Under the pieces are notes generated by a model, which made no database searches, had not been told where the DNA came from, and saw only the letters and a program-made list of their open reading frames with translations. Below are positions 30,748 through 37,671 of a DNA stretch of 43,722 nt, in pieces. The stretch is from Candidatus Gracilibacteria bacterium CG17_big_fil_post_rev_8_21_14_2_50_48_13 (GTDB lineage: Bacteria; Patescibacteriota; Gracilibacteria; 1-14-2-50-48-13): contig PFFG01000007.1 in NCBI GenBank assembly GCA_002783265.1, positions 17,598 through 61,319 of the forward strand. Direction: 5' to 3'. Position numbers and translations under genes: made by a program. Position 1 is the first letter of the stretch, and the number at the start of each line of letters is the position of its first letter.

Positions 30748-30811
30748 GCAGCAAAAAATATGCAATTTTTGCAAAAAAATGTATATACTACAAATGTACT
30801 GTTACTAGCTA

Positions 30812-31165
30812 ATGCATATGGAAAAGTTAACCCAGCTAAGAAACCAAATATTAGATTTTCGTAAGAAAAGAGATTGGGAACAGTTTCATAATCCAAAAGA
30901 TCTAGCACTTTCACTGGTTCTGGAAGCAACTGAAGTTCTTGAACACTTTCAATGGAAAAATGGTGATCAAATAGATGAGTACGTTAATACGCATACGCAA
31001 GAAATTGCAGAAGAACTCGCTGATGTTCTCTACTGGGTCATACTTATGAGCAGTGATTTAAATATAGATATTCTTGATGCACTAGAGCAGAAGATTGAAA
31101 AAAACAATCGCAAGTATCCTGTTGAAAAATCTAAAGGCGTAAGTACTAAATATACAAAACTCTAG
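30812..31165 (+). CDS. MazG-like nucleotide pyrophosphohydrolase
   Basis: A 117-residue all-alpha NTP pyrophosphatase. Residues E38, E41 and E44 (LVLEATEVLEHFQW) and E68 plus D71 (AEELADVLYWV) form the magnesium-binding pattern ExxE...ExxD. The size matches short single-domain MazG-like enzymes that hydrolyse dNTPs (dCTP or dUTP) or damaged nucleotides to the monophosphate. A second in-frame ATG at 30818 is also possible. Its TAG is followed one base later by the ATG of the GIY-YIG/DUF2075 gene, so the pair is co-translated. Base composition is AT-rich compared with the neighbours, suggesting transfer. A role in nucleotide control or phage defence is inference. Confidence 0.88.
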   Translation: MHMEKLTQLRNQILDFRKKRDWEQFHNPKDLALSLVLEATEVLEHFQWKNGDQIDEYVNTHTQEIAEELADVLYWVILMSSDLNIDILDALEQKIEKNNRKYPVEKSKGVSTKYTKL

Positions 31166-31166
31166 C

Positions 31167-32759
31167 ATGTCCCGACTAAAACTTTTCCCCTTTGATAAAC
31201 GTGGACTAGATTTGCTTGAAAAGGATCACTTTGGTCATAACTGGCCTGTGGTTTACCTACTCGCAGGTAAGAAAGAAATGTATGTGGGTGAAACAATTGA
31301 TGCTGTACAACGTAGCAAAAGTCATCTAGCAAATCTAGAACGACAACGCTTAAATAAGCTTTACCTAGTTTGTGATGAAGAATTTCATAAATCAGCTGCT
31401 CTTGATGTTGAATCAAGTCTGATTGAGTACATCTCTGCAGATGGTAAATATGTCCTGCAAAATGGAAACAAGGGTTTACGGAATCATGACTACTTTGATC
31501 GACAAAGATACAAAGCAAAATTCGAGCTTCTGTGGGATGAATTGCGTGCAGAAGGGCTAGCAATTCAAACTTTACCGACACTCAGAAACAGTGATCTATT
31601 TAAATACTCTCCATATAAAGCACTAACCATAGAGCAATACGAAGTTGCAGAAGCAGTAGTCAAAAAACTTCAGAATCAGGCTCAATACAAAAGTATTATC
31701 TTAGGCAAACCCGGAACAGGCAAAACAATTTTAGCGGTCTATTTGGCAAAATATCTGCTCAGCGAATTACCAGATAGTCAAAACTTACAGGTTGGATTAG
31801 TCGTACCTATGGTTTCACTCAGAAAAACACTCAAAAAAGTCTTCAAATTTGCTGCAGGTTTGCATCCAAAGATGGTGATTGGGCCAGCAGATGTCGTCAA
31901 ATCTAAGTATGATATTTTAATCGTCGATGAAGCTCATAGACTAAAGCAACGACGAAATATTACTAATTTCGCTTCCTTCGATAACACAAACAAAAAACTT
32001 GGATTAAAGTCTCATAATGACGAACTAGATTGGATTCTTCATTCAGCTAGGAAAGTGGTATTAATGTATGATCCCCAGCAAAGTGTTCGTCCGTCAGATA
32101 TTGCCCCAACTAGATTAGAATCTATTAATGCTGAAACCTACACTTTGCAAACACAAATGAGAGTTGAAGGTGGTGATGAGTATATTGAGTCTGTTCGAAA
32201 CTTTTTTGAAGGTTCTAACAAGATGAAGTTCTCAATTAGCGGTCAGTATGATCTGAGAATTTACAAGCACATTAAAGCCTTTATCAACGACATTAAAATC
32301 CGAGATCGTGAAATAGGTTTATCTCGTATGGTTGCTGGGTATGCATGGGATTGGGTAACCCGAAAGTATCCTGACTTGTTTGATATCCATATAGAAGACA
32401 GCAAACTACGTTGGAATAGCGTAGCCCATGATTGGGTGAATTCAAAAAATGCGATAAATGAAGTTGGGTGCATTCATACAGTTCAAGGCTACGATCTTAA
32501 TTATGTTGGCGTCATAATTGGACCTGAATTGAAATACAATTCTGAAACTAGGCAACTATTTATTGATCCTAAGGCCTACAAGGATGCAAATGGATACAGA
32601 GGTGTTAGCGATTTGAATGAGCTCAAACAGTACATTCTTAATATCTACAAAACCTTACTCACTCGAGGGATTAAAGGTACGTACTTATACGTTGTTGATG
32701 AGGAATTGAGGAAGCACCTTGCACAGTTCTTTGCATTGAAGTTTTTCGATGAAGCCTAG
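31167..32759 (+). CDS. GIY-YIG nuclease domain fused to DUF2075 superfamily 1-like ATPase
   Basis: A 530-residue fusion. Residues about 26-105 form a GIY-YIG nuclease domain (VVYLLAGKKEMYVGET, Tyr30 and Tyr39-Val-Gly41; catalytic Glu probably in DVESSLIEYI). After a linker comes a DUF2075 / superfamily 1-type P-loop ATPase. Walker A is GKPGTGKT at residues 180-187, Walker B is ILIVDEAHR with Asp254-Glu255, followed by MYDPQQSVRP, LQTQMRVEGG and IHTVQGYDLNYVGVIIG, which resembles the late helicase motifs. The combination suggests an enzyme that translocates on and cuts nucleic acid. It is paired one base downstream of the MazG-like gene. Compositional AT-richness and no housekeeping role point to an acquired module. 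Confidence 0.88.
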   Translation: MSRLKLFPFDKRGLDLLEKDHFGHNWPVVYLLAGKKEMYVGETIDAVQRSKSHLANLERQRLNKLYLVCDEEFHKSAALDVESSLIEYISADGKYVLQNGNKGLRNHDYFDRQRYKAKFELLWDELRAEGLAIQTLPTLRNSDLFKYSPYKALTIEQYEVAEAVVKKLQNQAQYKSIILGKPGTGKTILAVYLAKYLLSELPDSQNLQVGLVVPMVSLRKTLKKVFKFAAGLHPKMVIGPADVVKSKYDILIVDEAHRLKQRRNITNFASFDNTNKKLGLKSHNDELDWILHSARKVVLMYDPQQSVRPSDIAPTRLESINAETYTLQTQMRVEGGDEYIESVRNFFEGSNKMKFSISGQYDLRIYKHIKAFINDIKIRDREIGLSRMVAGYAWDWVTRKYPDLFDIHIEDSKLRWNSVAHDWVNSKNAINEVGCIHTVQGYDLNYVGVIIGPELKYNSETRQLFIDPKAYKDANGYRGVSDLNELKQYILNIYKTLLTRGIKGTYLYVVDEELRKHLAQFFALKFFDEA

Positions 32760-33203: not shown

Positions 33204-33370
33204 ATGGAGACGTATGTAATAACCATTGGAGTTTCACCCACTTCACGATGGCTTCGCTGCGTCGCTGACCGCTCCGCACTCAGCTCATCTGCGGCGGAGC
33301 CCCGAAGGTTCATTCCGGAAGGCATTACAGCCTTCCTCCATTCACTGGTTTCGAATCCTCACCTCTTACG
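33204..33370. other. structured non-coding stretch with two hairpins and an inverted partial copy of the tRNA-Ser 3' end
   Basis: No gene is supported in 33171-33425. The stretch is GC-rich and holds a perfect seven-bp stem GCTCCGC/GCGGAGC (33271-33277 and 33294-33300) and another, GGAAGGC/GCCTTCC (33317-33323 and 33330-33336). At 33347-33366, ggtttcgaatcctcacctct closely matches the T-arm and acceptor 3' strand of the tRNA-Ser 60 bases away, in the opposite orientation, with one inserted base and one mismatch. It could be a tRNA fragment, an old recombination scar or part of a small RNA. Confidence 0.45.
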
Positions 33371-33425: not shown

Positions 33426-33515
33426 TGGCGGAGAGGAGAGGATTCGAACCTCCGAGAGCCTTTCGGCCCTACTCGCTTTCCAAGCGAGCGCACTAGGCCA
33501 CTATGCGACCTCTCC
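33426..33515 (-). tRNA. tRNA-Ser (anticodon GGA)
   Basis: Read on the minus strand, acceptor GGAGAGG (33509-33515) pairs with CCTCTCC (33430-33436). The anticodon stem ctcgc/gcgag holds the loop ttGGAaa, giving anticodon GGA for serine codons UCC/UCU. A long variable arm (gggccgaaaggctc) and T-arm ggaggttcgaatcctcc confirm a class II serine tRNA. The discriminator is G and CCA is encoded in the DNA (33426-33428). Length is 90 bases. Confidence 0.96.
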
Positions 33516-36716: not shown

Positions 36717-37010
36717 TTACGCAGCAGCTTCTTCAGTCTTTTTTGTGAAGGTCACATGCTTGATGAATTTCTCCATGCCCTCCATCCCATTATTTTTGAG
36801 AAGACGAGCAACAGTCTGCGAAGGTGCAGCACCGTTGGAAATCCAGTGAGCGATGCGCTCCTTATTCAAAACGATATCTTTCTTGATAGGATTGTACGTT
36901 CCAAGAAGCTCAAGAAACTTGCCTTTAACAGGACGGCTATGTTCAGCAACAACGACACGGAAATGAGAGTTATTGCGCTTTCCTACGCGGGTGAGACGAA
37001 TACGTAACAC
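36717..37010 (-). CDS. rpsP: 30S ribosomal protein S16 (bS16)
   Basis: A 97-residue protein with the canonical N-terminus MLRIRLTRVGKRNNSHFRVV, the segment PVKGKFLELLGTYNP and the C-terminal region IAHWISNGAAPSQTVARLL. bS16 binds 16S rRNA early in 30S assembly. The start is GTG at 37008-37010. It is between rplY (25 bases upstream) and khpA (41 bases downstream) and is probably transcribed from the rplY promoter. Confidence 0.97.
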   Translation of the reverse strand: MLRIRLTRVGKRNNSHFRVVVAEHSRPVKGKFLELLGTYNPIKKDIVLNKERIAHWISNGAAPSQTVARLLKNNGMEGMEKFIKHVTFTKKTEEAAA

Positions 37011-37035: not shown

Positions 37036-37671
37036 TTATTCTGCAGCTGCTTCAGGAGCCTTCTGTGCACTTGCCTCAGGCATAGCAACTTCAGCTGGCG
37101 CTTCCTCTTCCTTCTCTTCCGTCGCAGCCTGTACAGTGACGATCATGGACGCCATGTCGCTTTGTACTTCGAGCCCCTTAGGAATCGTTATATCCTCAAG
37201 GTGAATAGAATCACCAATGTTTTCCAGCTTCGAAAGGTCGATAATAATGGAGTGCACGAGATCTCCAGGGAGACAGCGTACTTCCACCTCGTCCATGTTG
37301 GTCACCAAAATACCACCAAAGTTCTTCACTGCGTTAGACTCGCCCGTAAATTCAAATGGAATTTCTGTTATGAGCTTCTCCGTCATCTGGACAGCGAGAA
37401 AATCAACGTGCTGAAAGGTGTCATATACGGGATCCTTTTGAATATCCTGCACAAGCACTTTGTGCTTCTTACCACCAGGAACCTCTAAATCAATAATCGT
37501 GTTACTTCCCGCATCCTTAAATACCTTACGGAAGGCTTCGTGGTCGAGGGTGAGAGAAATATTCTCAATACCGTGACCATACATAATGGAAGGGATTTTC
37601 TTTTGTTTGCGAAGATCTTTAGGATGCACTGCGATATCGCGTGCTTCGCTCGACAGGGTAATGTTAGCCAT
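37036..37671 (-). CDS. rplY: 50S ribosomal protein L25 (bL25, general stress protein Ctc type)
   Basis: A 211-residue protein of the long Ctc/TL5 type of bL25, with an N-terminal 5S-rRNA-binding domain (1-90: the motif KQKKIPSIMYGHG and LVQDIQKDPVYDTFQHVDFL) and a C-terminal beta domain (about 95-185, VRCLPGDLVHSIIIDLSKL). An acidic, Ala-rich tail (EEKEEEAPAEVAMPEASAQ) follows. It is the first gene of the rplY-rpsP-khpA set. The 15-base palindrome at 37725-37739 upstream may regulate it. The start is ATG 37671 (MANITLSSE). Confidence 0.95.
   Translation of the reverse strand: MANITLSSEARDIAVHPKDLRKQKKIPSIMYGHGIENISLTLDHEAFRKVFKDAGSNTIIDLEVPGGKKHKVLVQDIQKDPVYDTFQHVDFLAVQMTEKLITEIPFEFTGESNAVKNFGGILVTNMDEVEVRCLPGDLVHSIIIDLSKLENIGDSIHLEDITIPKGLEVQSDMASMIVTVQAATEEKEEEAPAEVAMPEASAQKAPEAAAE

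Follow-up and report, generated by a model that had tools for sequence, protein, structure and literature searches.

A mobile gene pair of a MazG-type pyrophosphohydrolase and a GIY-YIG nuclease-helicase in Gracilibacteria, a candidate module for defence against invading DNA

The gene pair and its surroundings

The window, by which we mean the entire 43,722-nucleotide stretch of DNA analysed, contains two co-directional genes that are separated by 1 bp and encode a MazG-type pyrophosphohydrolase and a helicase with an N-terminal GIY-YIG nuclease domain (table 1). The pair lies on a 176.8-kb contig of a 1.28-Mb genome that is 97% complete. The original prediction, made from the letters of the window, described two genes one base apart forming an island richer in A/T than its neighbours, and both features were confirmed: the G+C content of the pair is 37% compared with 48% around it, and the MazG gene (34.5%) and the helicase gene (38.0%) contrast with the 31 other open reading frames of the window (48.8% ± 2.0%). 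Only 0.5% of 1.95-kb segments are lower in G+C than the pair, and the lowest one overlaps it. In two relatives from the same class, G031 and G021, TGA is a sense codon, which makes a host of the Gracilibacteria type probable.

Table 1. Features of the gene pair and of its surroundings in the window
Feature	Position	Strand	Remarks
Upstream intergenic region, likely promoter	30748-30811	+	64 bp; by sequence
MazG-type gene	30812-31165	+	117 aa
MazG metal/catalytic motif E38xxE41...E68xxD71	30923-31024	+	100% conserved in 86 homologues
GIY-YIG/SLFN-g3 helicase gene	31167-32759	+	530 aa
GIY-YIG nuclease domain	31245-31496	+	about residues 27-110; conserved catalytic set
SF1B-type helicase core	31629-32732	+	about residues 155-522; motifs 98-100% conserved in 86 homologues
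tRNA-Ser	33426-33515		about 670 bp downstream of the pair, one gene between
30S ribosomal protein S16 (bS16)	36717-37010		by sequence
bL25	37036-37671		by sequence

The surroundings are ordinary (2H phosphoesterase, C39-like peptidase, DoxX, methyltransferase), and no homologues of the genes flanking the pair were found among 60 relatives from the class. The claim that the region holds few housekeeping genes was inaccurate, as genes for bS16, a KH RNA-binding protein, bL25 and a YbaB-like protein, all assigned by sequence, are found approximately 4-5 kb downstream. The tRNA gene reported nearby does exist, though a gene intervenes, and it was the only structured RNA found near the pair. Integration of the pair linked to this tRNA was considered and rejected: no attachment-type repeats flank the pair, and a 14-bp direct repeat (30952/33545) is within chance expectation. 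A separate observation is that part of tRNA-Ser recurs, inverted, as a 17-nt copy (94%; 33350-33366 versus 33432-33448) 65 nt from the gene, which is possibly a remnant of an integration event or of a tRNA duplication. The sequence TGTATATACTACA, located upstream of the pair, is unique in the genome. The 64-bp upstream region shows neither a LexA-type site nor the operator-like repeat that precedes the lexA-like gene of this genome. Control of the window pair by LexA was rejected on these grounds.

Domain architecture and predicted activities

The 117-aa protein matches PF12643 (2.6e-17) and PF03819 (1.6e-7), and its nearest solved relatives are the bacterial pyrophosphatase 4qgp (1.1e-19 by phmmer) and the dCTP pyrophosphatase DCTPP1/RS21-C6 (6sqw; 2.3e-19 by phmmer, and 8.5e-29 for the DCTPP1 comparison in a profile search). 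It is closer to DCTPP1 than to dUTPases (7e-4) or to housekeeping MazG (NCBIfam PRK09562, only 18 bits). The RDWEQFH and FQWK segments align with those of DCTPP1 and are nearly identical to them, and the EExxE...ExxD metal-binding motif is intact. The protein is predicted to be an all-alpha NTP pyrophosphohydrolase with dCTP or 5-substituted dCTP as the best candidate substrate, since DCTPP1 acts preferentially on dCTP and on methylated or halogenated dCTP (PMC4491611). What separates it from DCTPP1 is its genetic link to a nuclease-helicase, its own dCTPase activity being a prediction. A MazG of the same subtype in another genome (G167, L156:2228-3726) adjoins a 371-aa protein of EVE-like appearance on visual inspection; that protein has no Pfam match at 1e-5, the locus contains no SLFN-g3 helicase, and the neighbour is possibly another partner of this MazG subtype that is linked to modified bases.

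The 530-aa protein matches PF09848 (Pfam SLFN-g3, formerly DUF2075) at 9.9e-63. All SF1 helicase motifs are intact, with G180, G183, G185 and K186 in Walker A, D254-E255-x-H257, D302/Q305, Q330/R332, Q440 and R500. The AF2 model (pLDDT 89.8, pTM 0.81) retrieved RecD2, SLFN11, Upf1 and SLFN14 in Foldseek, in keeping with the fold of the DUF2075/COG3410 (SLFN-g3) helicases, for which no published function was found in the open literature searched. In its N-terminal part, Tyr30, Tyr39, Gly41, Arg49, His53, Glu82 and Asn99 are conserved in 96-98% of the 86 homologues. PF01541 (GIY-YIG) does not match the window protein at 1e-3, and a relative (L061) matches it at 1.2e-6. The top solved structures for the N-terminal profile include I-TevI, T4 endonuclease II (2wsh) and UvrC, all as weak matches (E 0.02-0.4). 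Judged by the conserved residues and the match of the relative, the GIY-YIG domain appears to be real, though in the window copy it lies under Pfam's threshold. The MazG-like, GIY-YIG and DUF2075 assignments of the original prediction were right, and the catalytic residues are all intact in both proteins.

Not every MazG-linked helicase carries this nuclease. In four genomes (G034, G092, G201 and G021) the helicase has a different N-terminus, which is not GIY-YIG, and MazG is located directly upstream; helicases on plasmids of the archaeon Halalkalicoccus and of Priestia share this alternative N-terminus and are likewise directly preceded by MazG. Its invariant E62, D73 and E91-L-K93-Q94 form, by inspection, a PD-(D/E)XK-like signature, and no solved structure was matched by sequence. 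To judge from these signatures, the nuclease is swappable between GIY-YIG and PD-(D/E)XK-like types, and the window protein, with GIY-YIG, differs in this respect from DUF2075/COG3410 helicases of the PD-(D/E)XK-like kind.

A third domain is present in relatives. Of the 86 GIY-YIG homologues, 46 carry an S24 domain at the C-terminus (PF00717, up to 2.8e-24), which the window helicase lacks. The cleavage site is either Cys-Gly, as in UmuD, or Ala-Gly, as in LexA, and none of 29 aligned sequences departs from the cleavage Gly, the serine of the GxSM motif or the lysine. The S24 part of a predicted model matches LexA crystal structures at 2.3-2.9 Å. What sets it apart from LexA and UmuD is its fusion partner, a nuclease-helicase in place of a DNA-binding domain. 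At least six gains or losses of S24 are required on the tree, and no separate S24 gene was found among the open reading frames near the copies that have none. When the fused S24 domains of Patescibacteria are compared with a LexA-like protein encoded in the window genome, identity reaches 51%. That genome also has a UmuD-like S24 gene (G000:C5:126197, L124) adjoining one for a UmuC/DinB-type polymerase, as well as two LexA-like repressors (L123 and L125), so that, small as it is, it does possess SOS components. The original prediction contained neither the dCTPase identity nor the exchange of nucleases nor the S24 domain of relatives.

Recurrence and mobility of the pair

Counting how often the two genes are adjacent had been proposed as a check, and the outcome was clear. 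The helicase alignment, run against 85,000 genomes, detected at least 567 relatives, and among the best 80 of these the same MazG lies beside the helicase in 78, the paired relatives coming from Patescibacteria, Bacillota, Bacteroidota, Spirochaetota and Pseudomonadota. One of the two unpaired loci is cut by a contig end. In most of them MazG directly precedes the helicase (it follows in four, is divergent in two and is separated by a gene in one), and no other neighbour family is common to more than nine of these best 80 loci. When 145 species of the phylum were sampled evenly, six helicases were found at E<=1e-30, and every one of them directly adjoins MazG; in the class relatives G021, G031 and G034 it is directly beside the helicase as well. 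The 24 module-bearing genomes have their strong MazG match at the module, and one of them (G070) carries a second, degraded copy. Pairwise distances of MazG and helicase are correlated (r=0.64 versus a permutation maximum of 0.22 in 2000 permutations), to which shared taxonomy contributes. The link is looser in distant GIY-YIG-SLFN-g3 copies on Bacillota plasmids, several of which are without MazG. That a housekeeping MazG merely happens to stand beside an unrelated helicase would fit with three of the nine closest MazG homologues in the 145 genomes, which have no such helicase beside them (the other six do); nevertheless, chance pairing is hardly credible and was rejected, owing to the 78 of 80 adjacencies among the best relatives, spread across phyla with otherwise unrelated neighbours, and the six of six in the phylum sample.

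The distribution is patchy. The full protein occurs in four of the 145 phylum species, in different families, and in about 3% of a Bacteroidota sample. Phyla are interleaved on the tree, where two Patescibacteria fall within a Bacteroidota clade and one Bacillota bin within Patescibacteria, and the full-length class members (the window and G031) are not grouped. Binning errors can contribute to the interleaving, but not to the low G+C on the 177-kb contig of the window. Plasmid copies exist, including archaeal and Priestia plasmids. Vertical conservation in all relatives, which would have spoken against a defence unit, is not what the four species and the interleaved tree show, and a vertically inherited housekeeping gene was rejected for the same reasons. 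The pair is a recurrent two-gene module that moves horizontally.

Some loci are larger. A large helicase recurs beside the pair in seven of them (L008, L010, L042, L048, L065, L089 and L094); on an L. plantarum plasmid (L008) it combines a PLD-like nuclease, a ResIII helicase and DUF3427, and there and in L048 a NUDIX pyrophosphohydrolase accompanies it, possibly an extended form of the system that includes a second hydrolase for nucleotides. L010 is GenBank MT836409, labelled 'Bacteriophage sp.'; besides the MazG pair it encodes a PLD-helicase and a glycogen-debranching-like enzyme, and it looks like a fragment of a bacterial chromosome.

Defence, repair and comparison with known systems

What, then, does the module do? 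We consider it an autonomous, horizontally transferred unit whose most likely role is protection of the host against phages or other foreign DNA, with a probability of roughly 0.55. This role is favoured by the patchy and mobile distribution, the architecture of a nuclease joined to an SF1 helicase, the swapped nucleases, the proximity of plasmid copies to defence genes, and the fact that Nhi and AbiO are the nearest defence models. The helicase-nuclease would load on ssDNA or forked DNA of the invader's replication intermediates, where the SF1B motor would translocate and the GIY-YIG domain would cut DNA. MazG would convert dCTP or 5-substituted dCTP to dCMP and pyrophosphate, which would limit resynthesis or remove the modified cytosine nucleotides that would make invader DNA resistant to this nuclease. 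In many relatives, although not in the window copy, S24 may cleave itself on RecA-ssDNA filaments in the manner of LexA and UmuD and thereby gate the helicase-nuclease. Each of these enzymatic steps is a prediction from conserved active sites.

A PADLOC scan, also suggested with the original prediction, returned only partial matches. In PADLOC-DB 2023 MazG has no match and the helicase no full-length model; its nearest defence models are AbiO (3.7e-12) and Nhi (1.2e-11, and 3.5e-16 for the relative L018), which cover the helicase core only, approximately residues 173-347 of models of 468-470 residues. Membership in a PADLOC system was rejected on this basis. Nhi stands for nuclease-helicase immunity, with a nuclease and an SF1 helicase in one protein. 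Like Nhi of Staphylococcus and AbiO of Lactococcus, the window helicase is a single-protein nuclease and SF1 helicase whose core matches their models, but its N-terminal nuclease is GIY-YIG, and the module adds a dCTPase-like MazG partner and, in relatives, the S24 domain. The original prediction knew of no named system with exactly this pair, and none was found in PADLOC-DB 2023 or in the open literature searched, which takes in few subscription journals; older defence-island surveys may mention COG3410. In the same literature DUF2075 is mentioned only incidentally, and no paper ties it to MazG, GIY-YIG or defence.

The genomic context is divided. On the one hand, most of the first ten annotated bacterial plasmid homologues (several without MazG) have defence-type genes within 6 kb, among them restriction-modification, CRISPR, PLD-helicase/DUF2357, DUF3578 and nucleotidyltransferase-E2-Mov34 (CBASS-like) genes. 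PADLOC matches at 1e-10 comprise 125 families in 129 neighbours versus 73 in 118 control proteins, the tally counting families instead of proteins and the control being a small one from distant regions of the same genomes; the neighbour matches are spread over several proteins (Mrr, AbiEii, AbiLi, PtuA, AriA), and many control matches look like one methyltransferase. Taken together, these profile matches are suggestive of an enrichment of defence genes. On the other hand, many chromosomal copies lie among ordinary genes (glycosyltransferase, TonB receptor, GH127, TPR), as does the copy in the window, where the pair is not in a defence island. Of the idea of an anti-phage or plasmid-defence unit, the recurrent, horizontally moving unit is borne out, the picture for residence in defence islands is mixed, and defence itself is a prediction.

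The main rival to defence is an SOS-type role in DNA repair and nucleotide sanitation, unlikely in our estimate yet to be taken seriously, in which MazG would clear damaged dCTP such as 5-hydroxy-dCTP, the helicase-nuclease would process damaged or branched DNA, and S24 would couple the fused forms to RecA. UvrC also has a GIY-YIG domain, the helicase model resembles RecD2, the fused S24 is close to the genome's own LexA-like protein, and the location of many copies among ordinary genes is as expected. Mycobacterial MazG is reported to clean 5-OH-dCTP (PMC3855555), which also counts for repair. S24 and MazG housecleaning, which fit repair too, and the lack of a methyltransferase or other self-marking gene in the module to discriminate self from non-self, count against defence, as do the distant Bacillota plasmid copies without MazG and the upstream region of the window pair, in which no LexA-type site was found. 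However, the module is very patchy, is mobile across phyla and plasmids and has its nuclease domain swapped. Repair systems are usually conserved more widely and more vertically. An improbable alternative is a selfish addiction unit, in which MazG would temper a toxic nuclease-helicase through the nucleotide pool and so stabilize the pair or its plasmid; the two-gene size, mobility and plasmid presence would suit it, but the small partner, as an enzyme whose active site is wholly intact, is no typical antitoxin, and gene order and orientation vary among the best 80 relatives.

Within the defence reading, nucleotide-depletion defences, which include dCTP deaminase and dGTPase, resemble the module in its predicted attack on the dCTP pool, whereas here the enzyme is a MazG-fold pyrophosphohydrolase coupled to a nuclease-helicase. 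Phage T4 has a dCTPase (gp56) and endonuclease II, a GIY-YIG nuclease. The two chemistries recur in the module, with 2wsh among the weak structural matches, but the module is bacterial, fused to a helicase and genetically linked, and a homologous strategy is not supported. A more specific version, which we regard as rather doubtful, is that the module enforces cytosine status: MazG would destroy modified (hydroxymethyl- or methyl-) dCTP and thereby keep a phage from masking its DNA, the GIY-YIG helicase would destroy the unmasked DNA, and in many lineages RecA-triggered self-cleavage of S24 would be the on-switch. Were it true, an SOS-gated immune nuclease would be combined with policing of the nucleotide pool, the reverse of the T4 strategy.

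What appears to be new is that a nuclease-helicase of presumed defence type has a partner acting on the nucleotide pool and, in relatives, a putative switch in the form of an autoprotease. Existing annotation of this widespread pair goes no further than 'nucleotide pyrophosphohydrolase' and 'DUF2075'; it can now be described as a module of three predicted activities, with a swappable nuclease and an optional LexA/UmuD-type protease. Ultra-small Patescibacteria, about whose defences against phages little is known, are among its carriers, and if defence is its function, it would unite an attack on the dNTP pool and a nucleolytic attack in one operon and place a RecA-responsive trigger on an immune nuclease.
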